From: Gammaproteobacteria bacterium
GTDB lineage: Bacteria > Pseudomonadota > Gammaproteobacteria > Pseudomonadales > Halieaceae
Reading direction: 5' to 3'
Assembly: GCA_030428835.1 (NCBI GenBank)
Contig: JAUIEP010000014.1
Span: 1-55,621, forward strand
Length of the DNA: 55,621 nucleotides
Shown one piece after another: positions 18,567-32,202 of the stretch (position 1 is its first letter; every line of letters begins with the position of its first letter). The position numbers were made by a program, and so were the translations under genes. Below the pieces are notes generated by a model. It worked only from the letters and a program-made list of their open reading frames with translations, had not been told where the DNA came from and made no database searches.

Positions 18567-18967
18567 ATGTCGCAGCCCCATCCAGAACGCCCCCGAGCAT
18601 CGGCGGTAAACCCGGTATCAATGGAACAACTGTCGCCGGGAGCTCGGTTGTTGGTCTGGAGTGTGCGCCAGTGGGTGGTCTCCGCTCATCTACGGCACTG
18701 TTACCCTCCAATCCGCAAGCCTATGCTACCGAGGCGCTCGCGCGGGCGGAGCGCGCGGCAGCCGCGCGGGGAATAGAGACCCAGACGCTCTGGGAGCTGC
18801 TGCTCAACGGCCAGGACATTCACGTCATCAAGGGCGAGGAAGCCAACCACAAAATTACCACGGCGCAGGACTGGGAAATCATGCAGAAAGTTACCTTTCC
18901 GCGCTGGCTGTCAGAAAACGCTCACTTGATAGAGGCACAAGACTATGCGCAAGAGCGCAGCCATTAG
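18567..18967 (+). pseudogene. Small gene with apparent frameshift, first gene of the Fur-linked transcript
   Basis: ATG 18567 has a good ribosome site (GGAGAG, 5 bases spacing) and opens a frame containing LSPGARLLVWSVRQWV, which looks like a real conserved start of a small protein; this frame ends at 18776 in low-complexity Arg-rich sequence. A second frame, open from before 18671 to 18967, carries protein-like sequence (ATEALARAERAAAARGIE, then TLWELLLNGQDIHVIKGEE) and overlaps the start of the next gene by 23 bases. A one-base gain or two-base loss around 18690-18720 would join them into about 133 codons. Whether this is decay, a sequence error or programmed shifting is unknown. I do not recognise the family. 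Confidence 0.45.
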
Positions 18968-20243
18968 TACGCGCGACCAGAGGCTTTATTGGCAGGACGG
19001 AGACGACTCCGCGGAGTTTGTGTTTGTCGACTATTACGTGGAGTCGCCATTCGAGCTTGAAGCAGCGGCGGTGTTCATGGCGGAGGAGCAGTCCTTGCCG
19101 GTCGATATAGCAGATAAGCTGCCGGTCGGCGTGGCGACTGATGCCCGGATCGCCAAAATCGTCAGCATTGCCCCGTTGCCAACGGTGAGCGACAGGCTGC
19201 TGCCGACCTACTGGCTGGGCGAGTTCGGCGAGGATCAGCGGCGCTGTCTTGCAGGAGAGACGTTTAGTGCCGGCGAGATCACGCTCGCCTTCCCTGTGGC
19301 GGGGTTCGGCGCCAACCTGACTCACCTGTGGAGCGTCGTCTACGGCGAACTGCCGCGCCACGGCACCCTTAGCGCTTTCCGCATTCTGGATATTCGCTTC
19401 CCCGACGAGGTGTTGCGCCAGTTTCCCGGGCCTGCGTTTGGCGTAGAGGGACTGCGCGAGCGGCTGGGAGTGTTCGATCGCCCCATCTTCGCCCGCTCGA
19501 CCCAGCCGCCCGTTGCACTTGGTACCGGCGCGATGGCGGAGATCGCGGCTCAGGTACTGCGCGGCGGCTTCGATTTCATCAAGGACGATGAACTGACCCT
19601 GAACGACCCGCTGTCACCCTTCGAAGCGCGTATACCGCACATGGTGAAGCGCCTTGCCGAGGTGAGCGAGGAGTGCAACGAGAGAAAACTGTTTTTCGCC
19701 AATATCATCGACAGCCCGCTGAAAAGTATCGAGCGGCTGGCCTTCGCTGAGGCCGCGGGTGTCGACGGTGTCGTCGTCGCGACCGGCATGCAGGGTATCG
19801 AGTTTATCCGCGAGGTCCGCGCGCGCTGCAGCGTCCCGATTCTGGCCCACAACGCCGGCATCGACATGCAGACCCGCCATCCGCGGTTTGGTGTGGACTA
19901 CGCGCTCAGCATCAAACTGGACCGTCTGTGCGGCGGCGACCTGGCGATGCTGCCAGGCGCTGCGCTGACCGAAGGCGGAGACGACGCCGAGCTGCGCCGC
20001 TGCCTGGACGCCTGTCTCGGTGCGCTCGGCACGCACAAGCCGATACTGCCGATACTGGCAGGTGGTAAGACCTCAGCCGAACTGGGCGACTATTGCGACG
20101 CGCTGGGCACGACGGACTTCATGCTGATCGTGGCCTCGGATGTCGACAACGACGCGGCGGGCCTGCAGGCGGGCGCCGGCCGCTACCGCTTGGCCTGGGA
20201 GAGCTACCTGCAGCAGCGGGAGAGTGCGGCGCTCTCCCTTTAG
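18945..20243 (+). CDS. RuBisCO-like protein (form IV), catalytic lysines replaced
   Basis: A 432-residue homolog of the RuBisCO large subunit. The hallmark GGFDFIKDDE (207-216) matches GGLDFTKDDE, with K213, D215 and E216 aligned to the carbamylated K201 and metal ligands D203/E204. The loop holding K175 and K177 in RuBisCO (TIKPK) reads STQPP: Q187 and P189 replace both lysines. C-terminally, PILAHNAGID keeps a histidine where RuBisCO has H294, and CGGD matches SGGD, but the phosphate-binding GGGT loop is lost (VASDVDND). It cannot be a carboxylase; form IV members are enolases, isomerases or transcarboxylases of sugar-phosphate-like compounds. It lies downstream of a Fur-box promoter, which is unusual. 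Confidence 0.85.
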   Translation: MRKSAAISTRDQRLYWQDGDDSAEFVFVDYYVESPFELEAAAVFMAEEQSLPVDIADKLPVGVATDARIAKIVSIAPLPTVSDRLLPTYWLGEFGEDQRRCLAGETFSAGEITLAFPVAGFGANLTHLWSVVYGELPRHGTLSAFRILDIRFPDEVLRQFPGPAFGVEGLRERLGVFDRPIFARSTQPPVALGTGAMAEIAAQVLRGGFDFIKDDELTLNDPLSPFEARIPHMVKRLAEVSEECNERKLFFANIIDSPLKSIERLAFAEAAGVDGVVVATGMQGIEFIREVRARCSVPILAHNAGIDMQTRHPRFGVDYALSIKLDRLCGGDLAMLPGAALTEGGDDAELRRCLDACLGALGTHKPILPILAGGKTSAELGDYCDALGTTDFMLIVASDVDNDAAGLQAGAGRYRLAWESYLQQRESAALSL

Positions 20244-20794: not shown

Positions 20795-21433
20795 ATGAAA
20801 GGAATGCTTCGCGTACTGTCCGTACTGGTGCTGTCACTGGCCAGCAGCACTCAGGCGGCATTGCTTACGCTGGAACCGACGGTGCAAAACGCGCAGCCGG
20901 GCAACACGGTGAGCATTGATCTTCTAGTATCCGGGCTCGGTCAGGGCGTTGGCCCCAACCTGGGTGCCTTCGATGTCGATATCGGCTACGACCCGCTGGC
21001 GCTGTCGCTGCAGGACCCCCTTATTCCATACACCCTTGGTGGTAGTCTAGGCGATTTCAGTCTGGGCGAAGCGTGGGATATCAGTTCGGGGGACCTGGGA
21101 GGGCTGATCAATGTCAGGGTGGTCAGTTTCCTGGAAAATGACGCTGTCAGCTGTGTCTTCTGTGTGGCCCCCTTCCTTGAAAATCTGCAATCGGATTCGT
21201 TTGTGCTGGCGTCATTCGAACTCTTCGTCGATGTGCTGGCGCCTGGTGCTTCTACGGCGCTGACTATCGAGACGGTCTATGGGTTGAGTGATGGCTTTGG
21301 TGTGCCGCTGCCAGTCAGCACGGAAAATGCGCTGGTCACGAGGCCGCGTGATGGCTCAGTCCCAATGCCTGAAACGTTGCCCCTCCTTGTGCTCGGACTG
21401 CTCTGTATGCGGTTCGTCAGGCGATACAGGTAG
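20795..21433 (+). CDS. Secreted cohesin-like protein with PEP-CTERM-like C-terminal anchor
   Basis: A 212-residue protein: signal peptide 1-21 (LRVLSVLVLSLASSTQA), then one beta-sandwich domain with cohesin-like wording (GNTVSIDLLVSGLG, LGAFDVDIGYDPLAL, VLASFELFVDV), and a C-terminal sorting-like tail: short MPE motif, hydrophobic helix TLPLLVLGLLCM and Arg-rich end RFVRRYR. That is the layout of PEP-CTERM proteins, though the usual PEP is here MPE. ATG 20795 is chosen for the signal peptide and GGGAG upstream; longer versions lack a signal. The next gene has a dockerin-like module, so this may be its receptor on the cell surface. No exosortase gene is in the window. Confidence 0.75.
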   Translation: MKGMLRVLSVLVLSLASSTQAALLTLEPTVQNAQPGNTVSIDLLVSGLGQGVGPNLGAFDVDIGYDPLALSLQDPLIPYTLGGSLGDFSLGEAWDISSGDLGGLINVRVVSFLENDAVSCVFCVAPFLENLQSDSFVLASFELFVDVLAPGASTALTIETVYGLSDGFGVPLPVSTENALVTRPRDGSVPMPETLPLLVLGLLCMRFVRRYR

Positions 21434-21524
21434 TCTTAAAAAAAATCCGGGGCGGTAGTTGTAATGTACTAACCTTCAGTAAGGCGGGGCCGGCGCCGGC
21501 TTTGCCTCCGAATGGGAGTAGTTC
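21434..21524. promoter_or_regulatory. Leader with GC hairpin before the RHS giant
   Basis: An A-run just after the previous stop is followed by a hairpin whose core is the 12-base palindrome GCCGGCGCCGGC (21489-21500), with outer AGGC/GCCT arms (21482-21485, 21504-21507). GGGAG lies 8 bases before the RHS ATG. No T-tail follows, so it is not an ordinary terminator. Confidence 0.3.
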
Positions 21525-24500
21525 ATGAGGGTATCTAGGGCCCTGGCGATTCTGGTGCTGCTCTGCTGGGGTCTGCCAGCGATCGCACAACCCTGTCATG
21601 TCGATGAAGATACCGATGTCGACCTCATCGATATCCTCTTTCAGTTCTTTACGATCAACCAGACGGTAACTGGTACCGAAGACCCGCGCGACGGCGACGG
21701 TGATGGAGATATAGACATCCACGATGTGCGCTACTGCGTTACCCAGTGCACACTGTCTCGCTGCGCGATAGTTCCGCCCAACGAGGCGCCCTCTATCGTC
21801 TCCTCAGCCGTGACGACGGCGACCGAGAACCAGGTTTATAGCTACGCGGTCATCGCCATTGACCCCGACAACGATGCACTTGCTTATGCGCTGGATACCG
21901 CGCCTGCTGGAATGTCCATTGATACGGTTTCGGGCCTTATCCAGTGGCTGCCGTCGGGTGCCCAGGGCGGGTCGAACGACGTTGCTATTCGCGTCGAGGA
22001 CGGTAAGGGCGGTTTCGCTACCCAGGTTTTCACTGTACAGGTAGAGGTCGCCAACGGCGCGCCGTTCTTCACATCGGCGCCGATAACCTCCGCGGCACAG
22101 GGTGCGCCCTTCGCTTACGATGTCGATGCGTCGGACCCCGATACCGACACATTGCAATACTCGCTGGACTCTGCCCCAGTGGGTATGGGCATCGACGCGG
22201 CTACAGGGTTGATTGAATGGACGCCCGCGAGCGGCCAGGTGGGCAGCAACAGTGTTGTCGTGCGCGTGGAGGACGGCCGGGGCGGCTCCGCGGTCCAGGG
22301 CTTCAGCATTAATGTGGCGGCGATACCAGTCGAGAACAGGCGGCCCGCGGCGGTAGATGACCATTACAGTGTTGTCAGCGGCACAACCCTGACTGTGGCT
22401 GCACCGGGTGTACTCGATAACGACACTGACGTCGACGGTGATCCACTTACCGCGGTACTGCAGGCACCACCCCGGAACGGAGACCTCACACTCAACCCCG
22501 ACGGTTCTTTCGGCTATGTTGCACGGCATCCGGACACCCCGGACGGCAGCAGGCGCTTCGCAGTCAATGAGAACCTGTCCATCCTGGCTGTACCCAATTT
22601 CGATCCGGAGTTTACTGATGTCACACGGGGCGCGCCGGAACGGAGTGCAGATGGCAGTCTCGACACGTCGTGGGTGGGCGCTTCTGCCACGACTGACCTG
22701 TACGAGCAGATTTTCGAGTATGAGGGCATTGCTGTGCGCGAGGTGCGCATGTTCGGCAATCGCCAGCACAGTGGATTTGCAGAGATCGCCGAGGGTGTGG
22801 TGCGCCTGTTCAACCGCGCCGGGGTGGAAGTTTGGAACAGTGGGCCAATACAGTTTCCGGCTCCGAACAGAGACCAGACGGTACTCGTCGACCCCGTGGT
22901 AGAGGACGTATACCGCGTGCAGTTCGAGGCGACTGCATTCGAGGGCACGGGATTCGAACGACTTGCCTTCGCCGAGTTTCAGGTCTTCGGCGATGGCTTC
23001 GTGCAGCAATTGCCGATGGGGCTCGAATGGAGCTGGACCGGCGAAGGCAAGGATCTGCCAGAGTATGAAAATGTGCTGCAAACCCCGTTGGTAGTAGACC
23101 TGAACGGGGATGCTTACCCAGAGGTCGTCTTCGCGGGCACGCTGCGCACGGGTAACACGGTTAATCCCGGCTTCCTGCGCGCAGTGGATGGCAGGGATGG
23201 TAGCGAGGTCTTCCCGACCGGGCAGTGCGTAGACGCTTCCACCACGATGGCTGCGGGTGATATCGACGGCGACGGTCTTCCGGAAATCGTCGCGAGCATG
23301 ACCTCGCGACAGGGTGATACATGCGTCGGCAATGGTGCCTTCGGCAAGGGGCCGCGACTCATCGCGTTCGAACATGACGGTACTTACAAGTGGGAGAGTG
23401 AGAACCTGGACAGCCAGTTCGTAAAGTGGGGCGGTGTGACTATTGCTGATCTGGATGCTGACGGAGTGCCTGAGATCCTGGTAGATCGTCAGGTGCTGGA
23501 CAATGAGGGCAATCACCTTTGGATCGGCTCGGAGACTGCATGTCGCGGCTGCGTTCCCAAAGCGGCCGACATTGATCTGGACGGCAAGCTTGAGGTGATC
23601 ATGGGGTGGGGCGTGTATGAACACGACGGTACATTGAAGTGGCCGGTAGTGCATACCTACTCTGCTATCGCCAACTTCGATGAGGACCCCTACGCGGAGA
23701 TTTTTGTCAACCAGGCCAATGCATGGATTCTCTACGAGCATGATGGTACTGAGAAGTGGCGCGCTTTTGGTGGCTTCGGTGGTGGCGTTCCCACGGTGGG
23801 CGATTTCGACGGAGACAATGAGCCGGAGATCGGCATTGCCACGGCGTCGGAGTACCGCGTCCTCGAAACAGACGGATCGATCAAGTGGCGGCACCGCATT
23901 TTTGACGGCAGCTCTGGCGTTACAGGCTCCTCGCTGTTTGATTTCGACAACGATGGTCGTATGGAGGTCGTGCAAAGTGATGAAGAGTACTTCCGTATCT
24001 GGGACGGGGCTACCGGCAATGTACGTTTTCGCGAACGGGTGACCTCGGTGACCGCCAACGAGTATCCTCTCGTAGCAGATATCGACGCCGACGGCGAAGC
24101 AGAGGTGGTTGTCCCCGCGTCTTTCCGTATCGTTGAGGACACGGACGAGCTCACAGGGGGCGTACATGTATTCGGCAGCACCCTGGGTAACTTTGTACGC
24201 GCACGCCCTATCTGGAACCAGCACGCTTACGCAGTGACCAATGTCCTTGAAGATGGAAGAATTCCCGCAAACGAGAAGGAAAACTGGCTACTGGCGGGAT
24301 TGAATCATTACCGGGTAAACGCGTTCCTGCCCGAGGACGAGTCTCGATTCGACAAGTTTACCTACAAAGCCAGCGACAGCGATCTGCTGTCCGATGAGGC
24401 CAGCGTATTCATCGATGTTACCGCGCCGACTGCGGCTCCTGTCATTACGACCGAGCCCGTCCTTTTCGCCTCGGTTGACCGACAGTACTTTTACAACGCG

Positions 24501-27500
24501 CAGGCGCTGGACCCGGATGCACAGCCACTGACGTTTTCCCTGCCGGTCGCGCCAGCGGCAATGACTATTGACGCTGGCACCGGCCTGCTTGAGTGGGTGC
24601 CGCAAGCTTCCGACCTGGGCGAGCATCCGGTAGTGGTAAAAGTGGAAGACACCGACGGGCTGTTCAGCTTCCAGTCATTCGACCTGACAGTCGGCCAGCC
24701 GGTGATCGTACCGAACGTGGTGGGGGAGACCCAGTCTTCAGCTGTCACGCTGCTCGCCGCAGTCGATCTGAACCTGGGCTCGGTGCAGTTCCAGAATCAC
24801 CCTACCATCACAGTGGGCAACATCATCTCGCAGGACCCGACGCAGGGGCAGGAAGCCGATTTCCAGGGCAGGGTGAACATTGTAGTGTCAAGCGGGCCGG
24901 GAGTGCTTGATACCGATGACGACGGTGACGGCTTTACCGAGAACCAGGGCGATTGCAGCGATACGGACGACAGCATTTTCCCCGGTGCCAACGACATTCC
25001 GGGAGACGGCATTGATCAGGACTGCGACGGCAGCGACGCGACTGTCCCCCCTGCCCAGATTCTCATCTCTCCCGTCAGCGCGACCGTGCTGACCGGCGAG
25101 CTGGTCGACCTTGCCGCTATCGGTATCTATCCGGATAACACCAGCGCGGATGTTACGGGGCTGGTGAACTGGTCCACCGGCGGCAGTGTATTCAGCTCTG
25201 CCGTGCCCGGCGTATTCAATGTGATGGCCAGTATCGGCGCGGTTACCGGTAGTGCCACCGTGACTGTCCGTGCGCCCGTCGTGGGTGATGCGACGCTGCC
25301 GTTTGCCGAGCTGGCTACGCCCGCCGCGGGTGACCGAGTAACAGCGCCGGTGGATGTGATCGGTACCGTCAGTGACGACAATTTTTTCAAATACACGCTG
25401 GCATACGCTCGTGCCGGCTCCAGTGACTTCACCGTATTCGCAGAGGGAACGAGCGAAGTGTCCGGCGGCGTGCTTGGACAACTCGATCCGACATTGCTGA
25501 TCAATGACCAATATGTCATCCGCCTGACCGCGTTCGACGCCGGCGGTAACTCCGCTTTCGTTGAGCAGTCTGTGGTGGTCGATGAAGACCTGAAGGTAGG
25601 CAATTTCACGCTCAATTTTACCGACCTCGCGATACCTATGTCCGGCATTCCCATTACCGTCACTCGCACATACGACAGTCGCGACAAGCAGAAGGGCGAC
25701 TTTGGTGTCGGTTGGCGGCTGGATGTGCAGACTCTCTCGATAAGCGCCAACAGGATCCAGGGCACCGCGTGGGAAACTGTACCTGCGGGTCTGTCCACGC
25801 TGCAATTGGTACCAACGGATGTGCACACCATCTCGTTGACGCTTCCCAACGGCCGGGCGGAACTGTTCGATATGGCAGTTAATCCCTCGATATCGGGTCT
25901 CGGCGGCAGCTTCGGATCGGTGCAGGTGTCCTATGTGCCGCGCAGCGGCACCCTCGGCAACCTGCAGATTGTGGGTAATGACTTCGTGAATGTTGTCGGT
26001 GGGCCGGAGGAAGTGGTGCTGGTCGATGACTCAAACTTTACAACCTTCAATCCCAGGCGCTTCCGCTATATCGCGGCTGATGGGTCGCGGGTCGTCTTAC
26101 ATACCGACAATGGCGTAGAAAGCGTTACCGATGCCAGCGGCAACACGCTGACCTTCAGTCCCTCTGGAATTGTGCATTCAGCGGGCAAGTCTGTCACTTT
26201 TCAGCGGGACGGAATGGGCCGGATCACGCGTCTGACTGATCCGATGGGCAATCAGCAGATTTACACCTATGACGCCAATGGCGACCTTGTAAGTCATACA
26301 GATGCCGAGGGGCTCGTTACGCGCTACACCTACAACTTCCGGCATGGCCTCCTCAGTGTCACCGACCCGCTGGACCGGGTAGTCTCACGCAGCACCTACG
26401 ATGACGACGGGCGACTTGCCAGTATCACTGACGCCAGTGGACGTGTTATCGCGTTCAGCCACGACGTGGGAGCCAGGCAGGAAGTCATCACCGACCCAGC
26501 CGGCAACGTTTCGGTCATCGAGTATGACGACAGCGGTAATATTCTGCGCCTCACCGATGCACTGGGCGGTGTGAATACGTTTACCTATGACGTCAATGGT
26601 AATCCCCTGACCGCCACCAACGCGGCGGGCGAGACCACCACGCAGACGTTTGATGGACGCGGCAACCTGCTGTCGCGCACGAATGCGGCGGGAGAGACGA
26701 CCACTTACACGTACAACTCTCAGGACAGGATTGCCACCGTGACCGATCCGCTCGGTCGAGTATCGAGCAGGACATATGACAGTGCCGGACGACTTGTCAG
26801 TGAGACCAATGCTCTCGGTATCATCGCGCAGAGCCGCACCTACGACAGTGCAGGCAATATCACTTCTGTTACGGACGCTAACGGTAATAGCGTCTCGCAC
26901 ACCTACGATGCATTTGGCAACCGACTATCCAGCACCGATGCCCGCGGCAATATGACGACCACTGCCTACGACGCGAATGGCAACATCGTGAGCGAGGTGG
27001 ACAGGCGCGGATTCGCTGTTGCAACGACACTGGACAAGAACGGTCGCTTCACGACCAAGATGGACGCGCTGGGCAATATGGGAATGTTTGACTACAACGC
27101 GGCGGGCGTCATGGCGCGTGTAGAGGATGCCCTGGGCAATGTGACCGAACAGATCGTGGACGCAAATGGGCGGGACCTTACATTCACGGACGCGCTGGGC
27201 AACCAGATCAGCAAAACCTACGACATCCTTGGCAACCTTGAATCCCTGACCAGTTTCTCTGGGCACACCACCAGTTACGAGTATGACGCCCTGTCGCGCA
27301 GGGTGCGGACGGTGAGGCCCGATAGTGGCGCGTTCGAGACGGTATACGATGCGGCTGATCGCGTCACTGCCGAGACTGATGCGCGGGGCAATACAACCGT
27401 GTTCGAGTACGATCTTGCTGGTCGCAATACGCGGCGTATCGACGCTCTGGGTAATGCCACAACCTTTGCTTACGACGCAGTCGGTAATCTTGTGCAGCAG

Positions 27501-30044
27501 GTGGACGCCGGCGGCAACGTCTTCAGTTTCGCCTACGATGACCTGAACCGCCTGATTACCACGACCTTCCCTGACGGTACCACATCGAGCACAAGCTATG
27601 ACGCGGTGGGCAATGTACTCACCCAAACCGATGCATTGGGCAAGGTTACGCGTTTCGCCTACGACGTAAACAATAACCTGCGGGAGGTCGAGCAGCCCGA
27701 TGGCGCCACCACGCGTTACACCTACGATAACGAGGACAACCTGTTGTCGCAGACGGACGCTTTGGGAAGAACTACGAGCTACACGTATAACGCCAATGGT
27801 CGACGCGTCTCGAAGACATATCCGAACGGTGCGACGGAGACGACCAGCTATGACGCGGCGGGTAGGGTAGCCACACGAACTGACCCCAATGGACTGACGA
27901 CGATATTCAGTTACGACGCCAGGGGGCGTGTTGTATCGAAGTCATTTGGGGACGGCACCAGCGAGACCTTTGCCTACACGGCGGGAGGCCAGGTCGCCAG
28001 CGCGACGAATGCCACCGGCAGCGTCAGCTACCAGTACGATGTCAATGAGCGCCTTACTCGCTTGACCAACGCCGATGGCAGCTTCGCGGAGTTTGACTAT
28101 GACCTGAACGGCAATCGAGTAGCGCTGGTGACAGGGCTCCCTGGCGGAGCCACCCGGACGACCGCATTCACCTACGATGTACTGAACCGACTGAGTACCG
28201 TGACAGACCCGGACGGGGGCGTGACCAGTCACACCTACGACACTATTGGCAACCTGGAAACAGTAACGTACCCCAACGGCGTACTTTCGACCTATAGCTA
28301 TGACGCCTTGAGCCGCCTTTCCAATTTGCGCCATTCCCGGTCCGGCACCACTTTGGCGGAGTACGCGTACCAGCTCAATGCGGTGGGCGACCGCACGCGA
28401 GTCGACCATCCCGACGGCTCGCGGGTGGTCTACGAGTATGACGAACGTCGTCGTCTTATCCGGGAACGTCATTCCGACAACTTCGGCCTGGACACCACCG
28501 ATATCAACTACAGTTATGACGCCGTCGGTAACCGCACCGGCACGGTTGATATCAATGGCACGTCAGTCGTCTACAGCTATGACAGTGCGGACCAGTTGTT
28601 GTCTGCAGGTAGTACTTCGTTCACCTACGACGACAACGGCAACCTGCAGAGCAAGTCGGCGGGCGCAGATGTGTCGAACTACATCTTCGATGCTGAGAAC
28701 CAGCTCACCATGGTTGAAACGCCCCAGGGCGACGTGGCGTTCGCCTACGATGCGACGGGCCAGCGAGTCAGTCGCTCGGCTCCGGCCGGAACGACCAACT
28801 TCCTGGTGGACCCGGGACATCTCACAGGTGTGTCGCAGTCTCTGGTGGACTACGACAGCAGCGGCCCCATCGCCGAATACACCTACGGGTACAGCCTTAT
28901 CAGCCAGGATCGATCGGGCCAGGATGCCTACTACCTCAGTGACGGCAGCCGCAATGTACGTTTGCTGACAAACGCTCTCGCCCTGGTCATCGATGACTAC
29001 GTCTACGATGCCTTCGGCAACCTTGTTGATTCGAACGGTGCAACCGTAAACCCCTACCTGTTTGCCGGAGACCGTTTCGGGGCAGAGGAGGGCCTGTTGT
29101 TCCTGCGGGCGCGCTACTACGACCCCGCCACTGGTCGCTTCATCAGTCGCGACCCCTTCGAGGGTGTGCTGCGAGACCCGGCGTCGTTGCACCGCTACCT
29201 CTACGCGAATGCCAACCCGATCAGCAATTATGACCCCACTGGTCAATACACCACCCTTGCGACCACTGTGGTCGCCAATGCGTTGATTTCAATAAGTATT
29301 TCTCTTATCGCGGACGGCGTCAGCGGCAATGTCACTTGGAAGGAGGCAGCCGTCAACGCGGTGATCGCTGGGGGGTTCGGTGCCATTGGCGGCGCGGCAG
29401 GTGCCGGGCTCGCGGCACAGGCGACGAAATCAATGACCTCGGCTGTTGCCAGTTCCGTGGCCAGGAAGGGCTTGTTGTCAATGGGCATTATTGTCGGCAA
29501 GGCTGCCGCTTCGACCCTGCTCTCCGCTGCTGAGAGTGGTTTCACGGACGCCATCGGGAGAACCAATGGCGCGCTCAATTCCTCCGCTTTGGCGCGTATC
29601 TTTTTCATCAACCTGGCGCTGGAGGCCGTGACGTTGGGGTTTGCTCCGCCGCTTGAGATAGAGCAGACCGTGACCAAGACGAGTACTGTGACGGCAACTG
29701 TAGGCAGTGAGATCTCCAACTCGAGCGTACAACAGGCACTCGGTCAATCGAAAAGGGCGGAAAATCTCTTCAAGCGTTTTGTTGATTCCGGTGAGGACGC
29801 TTTTACCTTCCTGAGCCGATGGGGTAAGGGCAAGAGCCCGAAGAATCTCGCCAACAGGGCGTTGGCGAACCTGGCGCCGAAGGAGGTGATTTTTACCCTG
29901 GAGGAACAGTCCGTAAATATCCTGCGCAAGTCTTTCCTGGGGGCCGGAAAAACCTTCCCCAGCTCGGATGCCTTCGATTATTTCGTGGATGCCATGAAGG
30001 GGGCGGTGATCAAAGTCACCGATGCCTCTCCATCTGCTAATTGA
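21525..30044 (+). CDS. Giant secreted RHS/YD-repeat protein with N-terminal dockerin-like module
   Basis: 2,839 residues. Order (approximate): signal peptide 1-21; dockerin-like pair of Ca-binding loops (H24-VDEDTDVDLID and DGDGDGDIDIHDV) to 76; two He_PIG/Ig-like domains 86-268; cadherin-like domain from 271, interrupted by an F5/8-like segment (347-492) and FG-GAP repeats (495-905), and resumed at DKFTYKASDSDLL near 942; a third He_PIG domain 971-1060; PASTA 1061-1128; MopE-type Ca-binding region 1129-1172; Big-like domain 1177-1255; RHS start near 1356; YD repeats about 1560-2390; RHS core end ARYYDPATGRFISRDPFEG near 2520-2546; a unique C-terminal tail 2572-2839 with glycine-rich hydrophobic stretches. 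The tail matches no toxin I know, and no immunity gene follows. Lower GC than its flanks suggests transfer. Confidence 0.88.
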   Translation: MRVSRALAILVLLCWGLPAIAQPCHVDEDTDVDLIDILFQFFTINQTVTGTEDPRDGDGDGDIDIHDVRYCVTQCTLSRCAIVPPNEAPSIVSSAVTTATENQVYSYAVIAIDPDNDALAYALDTAPAGMSIDTVSGLIQWLPSGAQGGSNDVAIRVEDGKGGFATQVFTVQVEVANGAPFFTSAPITSAAQGAPFAYDVDASDPDTDTLQYSLDSAPVGMGIDAATGLIEWTPASGQVGSNSVVVRVEDGRGGSAVQGFSINVAAIPVENRRPAAVDDHYSVVSGTTLTVAAPGVLDNDTDVDGDPLTAVLQAPPRNGDLTLNPDGSFGYVARHPDTPDGSRRFAVNENLSILAVPNFDPEFTDVTRGAPERSADGSLDTSWVGASATTDLYEQIFEYEGIAVREVRMFGNRQHSGFAEIAEGVVRLFNRAGVEVWNSGPIQFPAPNRDQTVLVDPVVEDVYRVQFEATAFEGTGFERLAFAEFQVFGDGFVQQLPMGLEWSWTGEGKDLPEYENVLQTPLVVDLNGDAYPEVVFAGTLRTGNTVNPGFLRAVDGRDGSEVFPTGQCVDASTTMAAGDIDGDGLPEIVASMTSRQGDTCVGNGAFGKGPRLIAFEHDGTYKWESENLDSQFVKWGGVTIADLDADGVPEILVDRQVLDNEGNHLWIGSETACRGCVPKAADIDLDGKLEVIMGWGVYEHDGTLKWPVVHTYSAIANFDEDPYAEIFVNQANAWILYEHDGTEKWRAFGGFGGGVPTVGDFDGDNEPEIGIATASEYRVLETDGSIKWRHRIFDGSSGVTGSSLFDFDNDGRMEVVQSDEEYFRIWDGATGNVRFRERVTSVTANEYPLVADIDADGEAEVVVPASFRIVEDTDELTGGVHVFGSTLGNFVRARPIWNQHAYAVTNVLEDGRIPANEKENWLLAGLNHYRVNAFLPEDESRFDKFTYKASDSDLLSDEASVFIDVTAPTAAPVITTEPVLFASVDRQYFYNAQALDPDAQPLTFSLPVAPAAMTIDAGTGLLEWVPQASDLGEHPVVVKVEDTDGLFSFQSFDLTVGQPVIVPNVVGETQSSAVTLLAAVDLNLGSVQFQNHPTITVGNIISQDPTQGQEADFQGRVNIVVSSGPGVLDTDDDGDGFTENQGDCSDTDDSIFPGANDIPGDGIDQDCDGSDATVPPAQILISPVSATVLTGELVDLAAIGIYPDNTSADVTGLVNWSTGGSVFSSAVPGVFNVMASIGAVTGSATVTVRAPVVGDATLPFAELATPAAGDRVTAPVDVIGTVSDDNFFKYTLAYARAGSSDFTVFAEGTSEVSGGVLGQLDPTLLINDQYVIRLTAFDAGGNSAFVEQSVVVDEDLKVGNFTLNFTDLAIPMSGIPITVTRTYDSRDKQKGDFGVGWRLDVQTLSISANRIQGTAWETVPAGLSTLQLVPTDVHTISLTLPNGRAELFDMAVNPSISGLGGSFGSVQVSYVPRSGTLGNLQIVGNDFVNVVGGPEEVVLVDDSNFTTFNPRRFRYIAADGSRVVLHTDNGVESVTDASGNTLTFSPSGIVHSAGKSVTFQRDGMGRITRLTDPMGNQQIYTYDANGDLVSHTDAEGLVTRYTYNFRHGLLSVTDPLDRVVSRSTYDDDGRLASITDASGRVIAFSHDVGARQEVITDPAGNVSVIEYDDSGNILRLTDALGGVNTFTYDVNGNPLTATNAAGETTTQTFDGRGNLLSRTNAAGETTTYTYNSQDRIATVTDPLGRVSSRTYDSAGRLVSETNALGIIAQSRTYDSAGNITSVTDANGNSVSHTYDAFGNRLSSTDARGNMTTTAYDANGNIVSEVDRRGFAVATTLDKNGRFTTKMDALGNMGMFDYNAAGVMARVEDALGNVTEQIVDANGRDLTFTDALGNQISKTYDILGNLESLTSFSGHTTSYEYDALSRRVRTVRPDSGAFETVYDAADRVTAETDARGNTTVFEYDLAGRNTRRIDALGNATTFAYDAVGNLVQQVDAGGNVFSFAYDDLNRLITTTFPDGTTSSTSYDAVGNVLTQTDALGKVTRFAYDVNNNLREVEQPDGATTRYTYDNEDNLLSQTDALGRTTSYTYNANGRRVSKTYPNGATETTSYDAAGRVATRTDPNGLTTIFSYDARGRVVSKSFGDGTSETFAYTAGGQVASATNATGSVSYQYDVNERLTRLTNADGSFAEFDYDLNGNRVALVTGLPGGATRTTAFTYDVLNRLSTVTDPDGGVTSHTYDTIGNLETVTYPNGVLSTYSYDALSRLSNLRHSRSGTTLAEYAYQLNAVGDRTRVDHPDGSRVVYEYDERRRLIRERHSDNFGLDTTDINYSYDAVGNRTGTVDINGTSVVYSYDSADQLLSAGSTSFTYDDNGNLQSKSAGADVSNYIFDAENQLTMVETPQGDVAFAYDATGQRVSRSAPAGTTNFLVDPGHLTGVSQSLVDYDSSGPIAEYTYGYSLISQDRSGQDAYYLSDGSRNVRLLTNALALVIDDYVYDAFGNLVDSNGATVNPYLFAGDRFGAEEGLLFLRARYYDPATGRFISRDPFEGVLRDPASLHRYLYANANPISNYDPTGQYTTLATTVVANALISISISLIADGVSGNVTWKEAAVNAVIAGGFGAIGGAAGAGLAAQATKSMTSAVASSVARKGLLSMGIIVGKAAASTLLSAAESGFTDAIGRTNGALNSSALARIFFINLALEAVTLGFAPPLEIEQTVTKTSTVTATVGSEISNSSVQQALGQSKRAENLFKRFVDSGEDAFTFLSRWGKGKSPKNLANRALANLAPKEVIFTLEEQSVNILRKSFLGAGKTFPSSDAFDYFVDAMKGAVIKVTDASPSAN

Positions 30045-30267: not shown

Positions 30268-32202
30268 ATGAAGGGTCTTGTTCGTTTACTCATCCTCGCC
30301 GCCTGCGCTGTTTGCCTGCCGCTGCAGGCTGCTGTGCAAAAGGTGGACAACTTCGTCCTGCTGGACCATACCGGCGCCGCCCAGGAGTTGTTCTATGACC
30401 GGGACGCCCGGGCCATCGTCCTGATCGTGCAGGGCAACGGCTGCCAGATCATTCGCTCCCTCACCCCCGATTTCCAGGCCCTGCAGAAAGACTACGCGAA
30501 GAAGGGCGTGCGCATGTTCATGCTCAACTCGAACCTGCAGGACACGCGCGCCGCCATTGCCGCCGAGGCGCGGGAATGGGGAATCGACATGCCGATCCTG
30601 CACGACACCGCGCAGGTCATCGGCCGCTCGCTCAACCTCACGCGCACCGGCGAGGTCATCGTGATCGAGCCGAAGAGCCGTGAGATCGTCTACCGCGGCG
30701 CCCTGAACGACCGGGTGGATTACGAGCGCCAGAAGAAGGGCGCGAGCAACACGTACGTGCGCGATGTTCTCGACGACCTGGTAAAGGGCAGGGCGGTCGC
30801 CTACAGCGAGGTGAACGGCCCCGGCTGCCTGATCAATTTCCCCGAGCAGGACGGCGCAGCGCTCTCCTACGCCGACGACATCGTGCCGATCCTCACGGCC
30901 AACTGCACCGGCTGCCACTCCGAGGGCGGCATCGCACCGTGGGCCATGACCGACTACAACATGATCCGCGGCTTCGCGCCCATGATCCGCGAGGTGCTGC
31001 GCACGAAGCGGATGCCGCCGTGGCACGCCGATCCGGAGATCGGCCAGTTCACCGGCAACCACGGCCTGCCCGACGAGGACCTGGCCACGCTGCTGGCCTG
31101 GATCGAGGCCGGCGCACCGCGCGGCGAGGGCGATGACCCGTTGCTGTCGTTGCAAGTCGACAAACCCGTGTGGGCCATGGGCGAGCCGGACCTGATACTG
31201 GAACTGCCCGCGTTCGAGGTGCCCGCCTCCGGTGAGGTGGACTATGTCTACCCGCTGGTGGCCAACCCGCTGGATCACGGCGTGTGGATCGTCGCCGGCA
31301 CCATCATCCCGGGCGACACCAAAGCCGTGCACCATGTGCTCGTGGGTTCGATGGACGAGAAGCCCCCCGAGCACGACGAGGGTGAGGTATTCGACAACTA
31401 CATCATGGGGTACGCCCCCGGTAACGAGTCGGGCCTCATGCCCGAAGGCACCGGTGTCTACGTGCCCGCCGGTGGCTACTTCGCCTTCCAGATGCACTAC
31501 ACCCCCTATGGGCGCGAGTCCGTGGATGTGACGAAGGCCGGTTTCTACATCGCGGACGAACCGCCCGGCAACTTCCTGCGCCAGACCGTGGTGGTCAACC
31601 CCGATATCTCGATCGAGCCACGCAGCGCCGATCACGAGGAAACGGCCTACTTCGAGTTTTACGACGACGCCACCATCTATTGGCTCGTCCCGCACGCGCA
31701 CTACCGCGGCAAGGCGGGCAGCTTCGAGTTGCAGTACCCCGACGGTCGCAACGAGGTGGTGCTCTCGGTGCCCAACTACGATTTCAACTGGCAGCGCACC
31801 TACGAGTTCGAGGAACCGATCAAGGTACCGGCGGGCACGCGTATTGTGCACCGCATGACCTACGATAACTCCAGCAATAACCCGGGCAACCCGGATCCGG
31901 ATCGCAAGGTGCCCTGGGGTTTGCAGTCCTGGGACGAAATGCTCTACGGCTCGGTGTCCTTCTCCTGGGACAACGAGCGCTCGGACGCGCCGCTGCACGA
32001 CGAGCGCACCGCCGACATCGCGCAGTGGATGGGTTTCATGGACGAGGACATGGACGGCCTGGTGCAGCGCGGCGAGCTGCCGTTCAAACTGCGCATGGGC
32101 CTGCTGTTCTCCTTCGGCGACCTCGACGGCGATGGCGACGGCGGGCTCAACCTGCAGGAGATGGTCGACATGCTCGACCACCTGCGCAGCAAGCGCAGCT
32201 AG
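30268..32202 (+). CDS. Multidomain redox protein: redoxin, cytochrome c, copper monooxygenase-like, EF-hands
   Basis: 644 residues, exported (signal peptide 1-21). Residues about 23-185 form a thioredoxin/peroxiredoxin-like domain with a single Cys in NGCQIIRS (C59). A heme-c site CTGCH is at 213-217 followed by MPPWHAD, as in planctomycete-type cytochromes. The rest resembles the copper type II ascorbate-dependent (PHM-like) monooxygenase fold: VHHVLVG near 354, MHYTPYG near 409 and PHAHYRG near 475 offer histidine and methionine copper ligands. Two EF-hand loops (DEDMDGLVQRGEL, DLDGDGDGGLNLQEM) close the protein. It probably performs periplasmic copper-dependent oxidation fed by its own heme; the substrate is unknown. 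Confidence 0.8.
   Translation: MKGLVRLLILAACAVCLPLQAAVQKVDNFVLLDHTGAAQELFYDRDARAIVLIVQGNGCQIIRSLTPDFQALQKDYAKKGVRMFMLNSNLQDTRAAIAAEAREWGIDMPILHDTAQVIGRSLNLTRTGEVIVIEPKSREIVYRGALNDRVDYERQKKGASNTYVRDVLDDLVKGRAVAYSEVNGPGCLINFPEQDGAALSYADDIVPILTANCTGCHSEGGIAPWAMTDYNMIRGFAPMIREVLRTKRMPPWHADPEIGQFTGNHGLPDEDLATLLAWIEAGAPRGEGDDPLLSLQVDKPVWAMGEPDLILELPAFEVPASGEVDYVYPLVANPLDHGVWIVAGTIIPGDTKAVHHVLVGSMDEKPPEHDEGEVFDNYIMGYAPGNESGLMPEGTGVYVPAGGYFAFQMHYTPYGRESVDVTKAGFYIADEPPGNFLRQTVVVNPDISIEPRSADHEETAYFEFYDDATIYWLVPHAHYRGKAGSFELQYPDGRNEVVLSVPNYDFNWQRTYEFEEPIKVPAGTRIVHRMTYDNSSNNPGNPDPDRKVPWGLQSWDEMLYGSVSFSWDNERSDAPLHDERTADIAQWMGFMDEDMDGLVQRGELPFKLRMGLLFSFGDLDGDGDGGLNLQEMVDMLDHLRSKRS

Follow-up and report, generated by a model that had tools for sequence, protein, structure and literature searches.

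Two neighbouring genes of a gammaproteobacterium of the Halioglobus group encode what our analyses support as a pair of the cohesin-dockerin type. We propose that they form a non-cellulosomal display unit, in which an exosortase-sorted cohesin would dock a dockerin-tagged RHS giant through calcium, and we put the probability of this reading at roughly three in four. The genes lie in a stretch of 55,621 nucleotides, which is called the window here. Both reading frames of the preliminary description were confirmed at their positions; they are on the same strand and 91 nt apart. The features of the locus are as follows.

20795..21433, + strand: cohesin gene, coding for a 212-aa secreted protein with a signal peptide, one cohesin domain and a PEP-CTERM-like tail (reading frame, AF2, Foldseek)
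20795..20854, + strand: signal peptide of the cohesin protein, residues 1-20 (cleavage site estimated by eye from the sequence)
20855..21352, + strand: cohesin domain (family comparison, AF2, Foldseek)
21359..21430, + strand: PEP-CTERM-like tail, composed of VPMP, a hydrophobic helix and RRYR (NCBIfam matches to the tail only)
21434..21524, + strand: intergenic gap of 91 nt between the cohesin and RHS genes, containing an 11-bp hairpin
21482-21507, + strand: 11-bp G+C-rich hairpin without a T run, shortly before the RHS start (sequence, folding)
21525..30044, + strand: gene of the 2,839-aa RHS protein (reading frame, Pfam, NCBIfam)
21525..21587, + strand: signal peptide of the RHS protein, residues 1-21 (by eye from the sequence)
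21588..21773, + strand: dockerin-type module of the RHS protein, residues 22-83 (family profiles, pairwise BLASTP, conserved cysteines)
21597..21632, + strand: F-hand loop 1, residues 25-36, HVDEDTDVDLID, degenerate at positions 1 and 6 (consensus count)
21690..21725, + strand: F-hand loop 2, residues 56-67, DGDGDGDIDIHD, full match (consensus count)
29004..29246, + strand: RHS repeat-associated core, residues 2494-2574 (TIGR03696, E 1.7e-18)
29247..30041, + strand: C-terminal region of 265 aa beyond the RHS core (outside all NCBIfam families; chance-level Pfam match only)

No terminator-like site was found in the 91-nt gap, and a scan for promoters and terminators was uninformative. The hairpin, which lies in a region of ordinary folding energy (z = 0.16), might set the ratio of cohesin to RHS product.

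The cohesin-like beta-sandwich that had been noticed in the 212-residue secreted protein is borne out by structure prediction. AlphaFold2, run with 34 relatives, modelled the protein with a pLDDT of 91.7 and a pTM of 0.81, and in a Foldseek search of the PDB with this model all of ranks 1-24 were taken by chains that bear a cohesin. The best E is 6.3e-10, and 1g1k aligns with a TM of 0.82 when normalised to target length. Judged by its predicted structure, the protein is a cohesin fold. By sequence, the Pfam family Cohesin (PF00963) matches it with E 0.17 and 12.5 bits, under the gathering score of 24.1, and with E 0.10 when the domain alone is searched. The same family is found at E<0.01 in 23 of the 35 members of our cohesin alignment A4, and a sequence search of the PDB with the profile built from these members retrieves cohesins of cellulosomes (best E 3.1e-7).

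The protein had further been described as carrying a PEP-CTERM-like membrane tail. Here the tail stands, and its reading as a membrane tail calls for a correction. NCBIfam PEP-CTERM models match the protein over the tail alone, weakly (best E 0.0081), and the AF2 model has a helix at residues 174-191; the protein presents the C-terminal motif, the hydrophobic helix and the basic end of such signals, in a genome that encodes an exosortase on contig C76 (240 bits). The Pfam PEP-CTERM family is found at E<0.01 in 26 of the 35 A4 members, the window protein not being among them. PEP-CTERM is a sorting signal of exported proteins that is read by exosortase, and not simply an anchor, so the mature cohesin protein need not remain in the membrane. 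In the excerpts available of PMC5244752, exosortases and archaeosortases are described as transpeptidases that recognise sorting signals. In our sample of 57 genomes, exosortase was found in 10 of the 11 genomes with a cohesin (it is absent from G010, which is 89% complete) versus 22 of the 46 others.

The second gene codes for a giant in which, according to the best-matching stretches and a reading of the sequence, the order of domains is signal peptide, dockerin, He_PIG, Big_9/cadherin-like, FG-GAP repeats, He_PIG, PASTA, MopE motif, DUF6531, RHS/YD repeats, RHS core and C-terminus. The RHS/YD repeats (PF05593) are matched with E 5.2e-143 over 24 stretches, and the core (TIGR03696) with E 1.7e-18. 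In the C-terminal 265 residues no NCBIfam family was found, and the only Pfam match is at chance level (E 0.11). This region opens with a hydrophobic Gly/Ala-rich stretch, like that of RHS proteins with variable tips. An unsystematic look at the flanks recognised no immunity gene next to the RHS gene.

Two F-hand loops at dockerin spacing were said to follow directly upon the RHS signal peptide, and HVDEDTDVDLID and DGDGDGDIDIHD do lie there at that spacing. Loop 2 agrees with all 7 of 7 positions of the F-hand consensus; loop 1, which has His at position 1 and Thr at position 6, is degenerate and agrees with 5 of 7. Across the 111,238 six-frame residues of the window, the complete motif is present two times, the second occurrence being the C-terminal EF-hand of the gene at 30268-32202. 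A direct match of the window sequences to the Cohesin and Dockerin_1 models did not materialise: Cohesin stayed under its cut-off at E 0.17, and a Pfam search with the window module gave no match to Dockerin_1 (PF00404). Relatives provide the connection. A dockerin profile of ten rows and a second profile, each with the window module as one of its rows, find that module at 93.2 and 82.1 bits, respectively, and pairwise BLASTP aligns it with the two dockerins of locus L115 at E 1.6e-16 and 5e-17. In an alignment of 49 dockerin modules, Dockerin_1 is found at E<0.01 in 27 and EF-hand_6 in 34. The dockerin profile A5 also matches a solved dockerin of the PDB (2y3n_B, E 2.8e-6), with four PDB sequences ranking higher; it retrieves 347 PDB sequences at E<=1, mostly other EF-hands among the matches listed, and calcium-binding proteins and calmodulins score as well as or above solved dockerins. 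Four cysteine columns run through the family (window Cys24, Cys71, Cys75 and Cys80), each with Cys in 44 of the 49 members, and these residues may pair up as a disulphide clasp close to where the module begins and ends. Taken together, the sequence comparisons support the view that the window RHS protein starts with a dockerin-type module.

The genome of the window holds another such pair, located on contig C241. There, a cohesin gene, whose product lies above the Pfam Cohesin cut-off (25.7 bits), is followed by a dockerin gene as the next gene; the partner is a secreted protein that starts with a Dockerin_1 match at cut-off (22.9 bits), continued by a beta-helix and CxxCH motifs. Family profiles find two cohesins and three dockerins in this genome. 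The cohesins, of which Pfam Cohesin finds the C241 one, both belong to single-cohesin proteins and are 39% identical, and the two paired dockerins are 29-31% identical. The third dockerin protein (L112:294-476, - strand, on contig C1) is truncated where its contig ends, and the 4 kb examined contained no cohesin; from its sequence, it is a candidate for cargo that docks in trans.

To see the neighbourhood of such modules more widely, the dockerin profile alone was scanned against the contigs of one genome per species from 84,980 species, which yielded 42 loci. They come from Halioglobus, other Gammaproteobacteria, Betaproteobacteria (Zoogloeaceae, Nitrosomonas and relatives of Burkholderiales), Nitrospirota, and one MAG each of Deferrisomatales, Acidobacteriia and Clostridia; no cohesin was found near the dockerin in the Acidobacteriia and Clostridia MAGs, the Clostridia match being weak. 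After removal of duplicates of contigs already in our sample, 37 loci remained, and in 24 of these a cohesin on the same strand lies within 1 kb of the dockerin-bearing gene. Halioglobus japonicus (L067) is among the bacteria with a pair.

The position of the cohesin gene usually follows that of the dockerin in the payload protein. We combined the dockerin scan, the seeds and the class-sample loci (for the class sample see below) into 68 non-redundant dockerin modules, and counted orientation by the distance to the partner gene. For N-terminal dockerins the cohesin gene was upstream in 18 cases and downstream in 0, and for C-terminal dockerins downstream in 21 and upstream in 4 (Fisher 1.4e-8, with ancestry ignored and with neighbour-finding profiles that were built partly from the same loci). 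Thus the dockerin end faces the cohesin gene in 39 of 43 same-strand neighbours with a terminal dockerin, the crossed cases being L089, L090, L121 and L095. As to the other modules, for 22 of the 68 the search detected no cohesin up to 1 kb from the gene, some of these loci ending close by; two have a cohesin solely on the opposite strand, and a cohesin lies upstream of one internal dockerin. In G010, another profile finds a cohesin fragment right before the dockerin. An earlier count with a 1-kb cut-off from dockerin to cohesin (N-terminal, 18 upstream and 0 downstream; C-terminal, 0 upstream and 21 downstream) was rejected because a payload gene is usually longer than 1 kb, so that this cut-off drops most of the crossed cases. 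Also rejected was a cohesin directly after the dockerin gene in G022, where the dockerin is C-terminal in an ORF of 4,094 aa and the cohesin lies 12.8 kb further on. The orientation counts mean that the cohesin and dockerin modules usually abut on the DNA, with the payload on either side. On a cohesin tree of 38 rows, made by a quick method with SH-aLRT support only, the arrangement needs 6 parsimony changes, of which well-supported branches force 2 to 3; a single inherited arrangement is therefore unlikely as the whole explanation of the pattern.

Some loci depart from the simple two-gene form. In L115, one cohesin gene stands between a gene with a C-terminal dockerin and a shell gene with an N-terminal one, and in L095 (Nitrosomonas aestuarii) three genes in a row, all with a dockerin-like module at the C-terminus, come after a single cohesin gene. 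In L086, L087 and L092, the gene of a PEP-CTERM protein comes directly after a C-terminal dockerin, and the cohesin profile matches this protein only in or near the tail; by their sequences, these proteins are possibly a diverged or different receptor.

These observations bear on which cohesin the window dockerin would bind. With two cohesins and three dockerins in one genome, at the identities given above, the window dockerin could bind the C241 cohesin or a third partner rather than the window cohesin, the two window genes having merely been acquired together, and G014, with four dockerins and one detected cohesin, offers a parallel: docking in trans must occur there if those dockerins use that cohesin. 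We consider such non-cognate binding unlikely, since a cohesin gene is found repeatedly beside the dockerin-carrying gene across many payloads, and since the window cohesin groups with a cohesin that has a comparable neighbour. Among 37 other paired cohesins on the tree, its nearest relative is that of L115 (52% identity, SH-aLRT 99), which comes from a different order and also neighbours a YD-shell protein; the cohesins of its own genus are less close.

The two modules had been expected to co-occur in relatives. They do so, and neighbour each other, much more often than chance would allow, and the own genome adds the paralogous pair. Profile searches of the 57 genomes, the own genome included, found a dockerin in 11 of the 11 genomes with a cohesin versus 5 of the 46 others; eight of these 11 had supplied rows of the dockerin profile, and the three that had not (G010, G022 and G054) also have both modules. 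In a class sample of 370 genomes, 23 had a cohesin, 26 a dockerin and 18 both, which corresponds to a dockerin in 18/23 cohesin genomes versus 8/347 genomes without one (Fisher 2.7e-20, shared ancestry ignored). When the five seed genomes, namely the own genome and four recognised by matching ORF lengths, were removed, the figures were 13/18 versus 8/347 (Fisher 5.9e-15, shared ancestry again ignored). Weak scores underlie five of the 18 shared genomes (G122, G134, G207, G244 and G301), and no dockerin match was obtained in five of the 23 cohesin genomes (G076, G161, G165, G214 and G414). At E<=1e-10 there were 14 cohesin genomes and 14 dockerin genomes, 13 of them common to both, and in all eight non-seed genomes among these 13 no more than 1 kb separates the cohesin from a dockerin-bearing gene of the same strand. 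G165 carries an orphan PEP-CTERM cohesin (L132:5509-6162, - strand) with a strong score of 88 bits.

A second alternative takes the double EF-hand as only a calcium-stabilised, disulphide-clasped cap or spacer with which large secreted proteins end, the job of the PEP-CTERM beta-sandwich being unrelated. The matches of the dockerin profile to calmodulin-type EF-hands, some above dockerins, fit this idea, as do the four conserved cysteines, which suggest a role in stability, and the TSP3, MopE and other calcium or metal motifs present in several payloads. We regard it as very unlikely: what lies next door is specifically a cohesin fold, both the co-occurrence and the adjacency of the two modules extend across phyla, and a cap needs no cohesin beside it.

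In other bacteria this type of cohesin/dockerin pair carries unrelated payloads, RHS being one of many. We scanned 38 partner proteins against Pfam, and 12 of them have no family at 1e-5. The payload types include beta-helices, subtilases, one M19 dipeptidase-like protein, a metallo-beta-lactamase fold, Endonuclease I with Exo_endo_phos, one GDSL lipase-like protein, VWA, IgGFc-binding, adhesin-like proteins and PKD/He_PIG/cadherin giants. No catalytic glycoside hydrolase family was found in these 38 proteins at E<=1e-5, and this, together with the two single-cohesin proteins found in the own genome, is not the picture of a cellulosome. Glucodextran_B matches two of the 38 payloads, and Sde0182_C, the C-terminal domain of a cellulose-binding protein, matches four, over PKD-like stretches. 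Three lineages have RHS/YD shells: besides the window protein, two of the 38 partners carry one, each with a cohesin gene upstream. One is the payload of L094 (a Chromatiales MAG), which is 41% identical to the window RHS protein over 1,257 columns and has the dockerin followed by PASTA and then RHS; the other, with a teneurin-like shell, is the second of the two dockerin proteins of L115 (G269), which belongs to another order. In G038, an RHS-like protein of 3,875 aa (L136:2310-13937, + strand), whose FG-GAP region is 32% identical to that of the window, gave no dockerin match, and its sequence suggests that this type of RHS payload also exists without the dockerin plug.

RHS proteins commonly bear toxic C-terminal domains, and the 265-aa end of the window protein, which matches no family and has no immunity gene recognised directly downstream in the unsystematic look, would leave room for a cohesin that assists the secretion or folding of the RHS payload, or shields it during export for self-protection, instead of being a surface anchor, an idea that we find hardly credible given that the same cohesin type neighbours payloads without sign of toxicity and that PEP-CTERM is a sorting signal for exported proteins.

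The docking unit that we favour would work as follows. The signal peptide would export the small cohesin protein, and exosortase would probably process it via the PEP-CTERM-like tail, so that one cohesin domain would end up on the surface of the cell or in the matrix around it. Export of the RHS giant would be separate, and its first mature domain, the cysteine-bearing dockerin, would fold with calcium and dock into the cohesin. Since docking would be through the N-terminal dockerin, the shell would be held by its N-terminus, with the C-terminal end outward. The unit would be modular, the dockerin usually occupying whichever end of the payload gene lies closer to the cohesin gene.

The congener G016 provides a proxy for the complex: its cohesin and dockerin genes share a frame and were folded as one chain. 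The prediction has a pTM of 0.70, with 65 residues below a pLDDT of 50; the cohesin is mostly at pLDDT 93-97 and the dockerin at 79-95 over residues 231-290. A rough estimate from assumed confidences would give a pTM of 0.53 for an unplaced dockerin and of 0.67 for a placed one, and by this rough yardstick docking in the fused model is suggested only. A structure search with the proxy returned only cohesin chains among the 50 matches listed, and so gives no separate check of the dockerin fold. A profile comparison of the cohesin and dockerin families found them unrelated, as expected.

It is tempting to generalise further. Single exosortase-sorted cohesins and disulphide-clasped dockerins may constitute a widespread and transferable Gram-negative display platform for any payload, be it an enzyme, a CxxCH-bearing beta-helix, an adhesin or an RHS shell, of which the window would show an RHS shell, possibly effector-loaded, on or near the outside of the cell; because the coding ends of the cohesin and dockerin are side by side, payloads could be exchanged on the far side with the lock-and-key pair unbroken. 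We offer this wider reading tentatively, at slightly less than even odds.

The window pair resembles the cellulosomal type I and II systems of Clostridia, with which it shares the cohesin fold, a dockerin-type module of two F-hands, the first of them degenerate in the window, and, in our model, the docking module on the cargo and the receptor on an anchor or scaffold. It differs from them in having one cohesin per protein instead of the repeated cohesin arrays of scaffoldins, a PEP-CTERM-like sorting tail in a Gram-negative host instead of SLH or sortase anchors, four conserved cysteines in the dockerin, and payloads without a catalytic glycoside hydrolase family. Cellulosomes also have sortase- or SLH-anchored cohesins on surface proteins; there the cohesin sits on a surface-anchored protein as in our model, whereas anchor chemistry and host envelope differ. 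Another known system that the pair resembles is PEP-CTERM/exosortase, through the C-terminal tail of the window cohesin and the exosortase of the genome; this system is known mainly for EPS- and floc-associated proteins. Cohesins and dockerins outside cellulosomes are already known in archaea and bacteria, reportedly from work that includes Peer et al. in 2009, and RHS modules have already been described in Clostridial cellulosome proteins. According to the excerpts available of PMC6780208 and PMC3413522, the scaffoldins ScaO1, ScaO2 and ScaP2 of Clostridium alkalicellulosi have RHS modules with a cohesin and a dockerin, and dockerin proteins of A. cellulolyticus carry RhsA. RHS as dockerin cargo thus has a precedent; in these excerpts, the C. 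alkalicellulosi case concerns cohesin, dockerin and RhsA in one polypeptide of a cellulosome producer, whereas the window has two neighbouring genes in a Halioglobus-group gammaproteobacterium. For ANME archaea, excerpts of PMC9012536 and PMC5244752 report cohesins and dockerins outside cellulose degradation, with a suggested role in cell contact or adhesion; the proteins are scaffoldin-like with up to five cohesins, and a PEP-CTERM cohesin beside a payload gene is not mentioned in those excerpts. A giant ORF of Omnitrophota also contains dockerins (PMC10066038, in excerpt).

Searches of the open-licence full-text literature returned nothing on PEP-CTERM with cohesin, PEP-CTERM with dockerin or dockerin with YD repeat, and ANME only for exosortase with a cohesin domain; broader searches listed mainly work on cellulosomes. 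Within that literature, the two-gene, exosortase-linked, payload-exchanging form in Gram-negatives, used for an RHS shell, appears to be new. It bears on the roles of cohesins and dockerins outside cellulosomes and on those of most PEP-CTERM proteins. The recurring socket-and-plug gene pairs suggest a general-purpose docking of secreted proteins outside the cell. If the pairs bind, many poorly annotated secreted proteins of Proteobacteria and Nitrospirota would share one logic, that of plug-tagged cargo and an exosortase-sorted socket, and there would be a way to hold RHS/teneurin-like shells outside a bacterium, as well as new protein pairs for surface display.

The two window genes also stand out by composition. 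Their G+C is 0.577 and 0.587 (0.65 and 0.69 at third positions). By comparison, the upstream region at 10-20 kb has 0.66, the downstream region at 31-45 kb has 0.655, and the flanking genes have third-position values of 0.79 and 0.89; the upstream edge of this low-GC stretch is not sharp, 18.0-19.0 kb also being at 0.59-0.60. The C241 pair has a G+C of 0.665, like its genome. The low G+C of both genes and the L115-like cohesin suggest that the two were probably acquired together. Contamination as the source of the contig was rejected by tetranucleotide correlation: without 20-31 kb, the window correlates at 0.98 with part of C241 and at 0.96-0.97 with two other contigs, values as high as those among the contigs of the genome themselves. 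The gene just upstream of the pair (18945-20243, + strand) is RuBisCO-large-chain-like (Pfam E 8.6e-24). Its own genome contains two further, shorter matches to it, and a search of 27 other genomes gave none at E<=1e-30. The gene just downstream (30268-32202, + strand) combines a thioredoxin-like domain with a C-terminal EF-hand and also gives weak matches to cytochrome and copper monooxygenase; it has three more matches in its own genome and matches in 11 of the 27 others.
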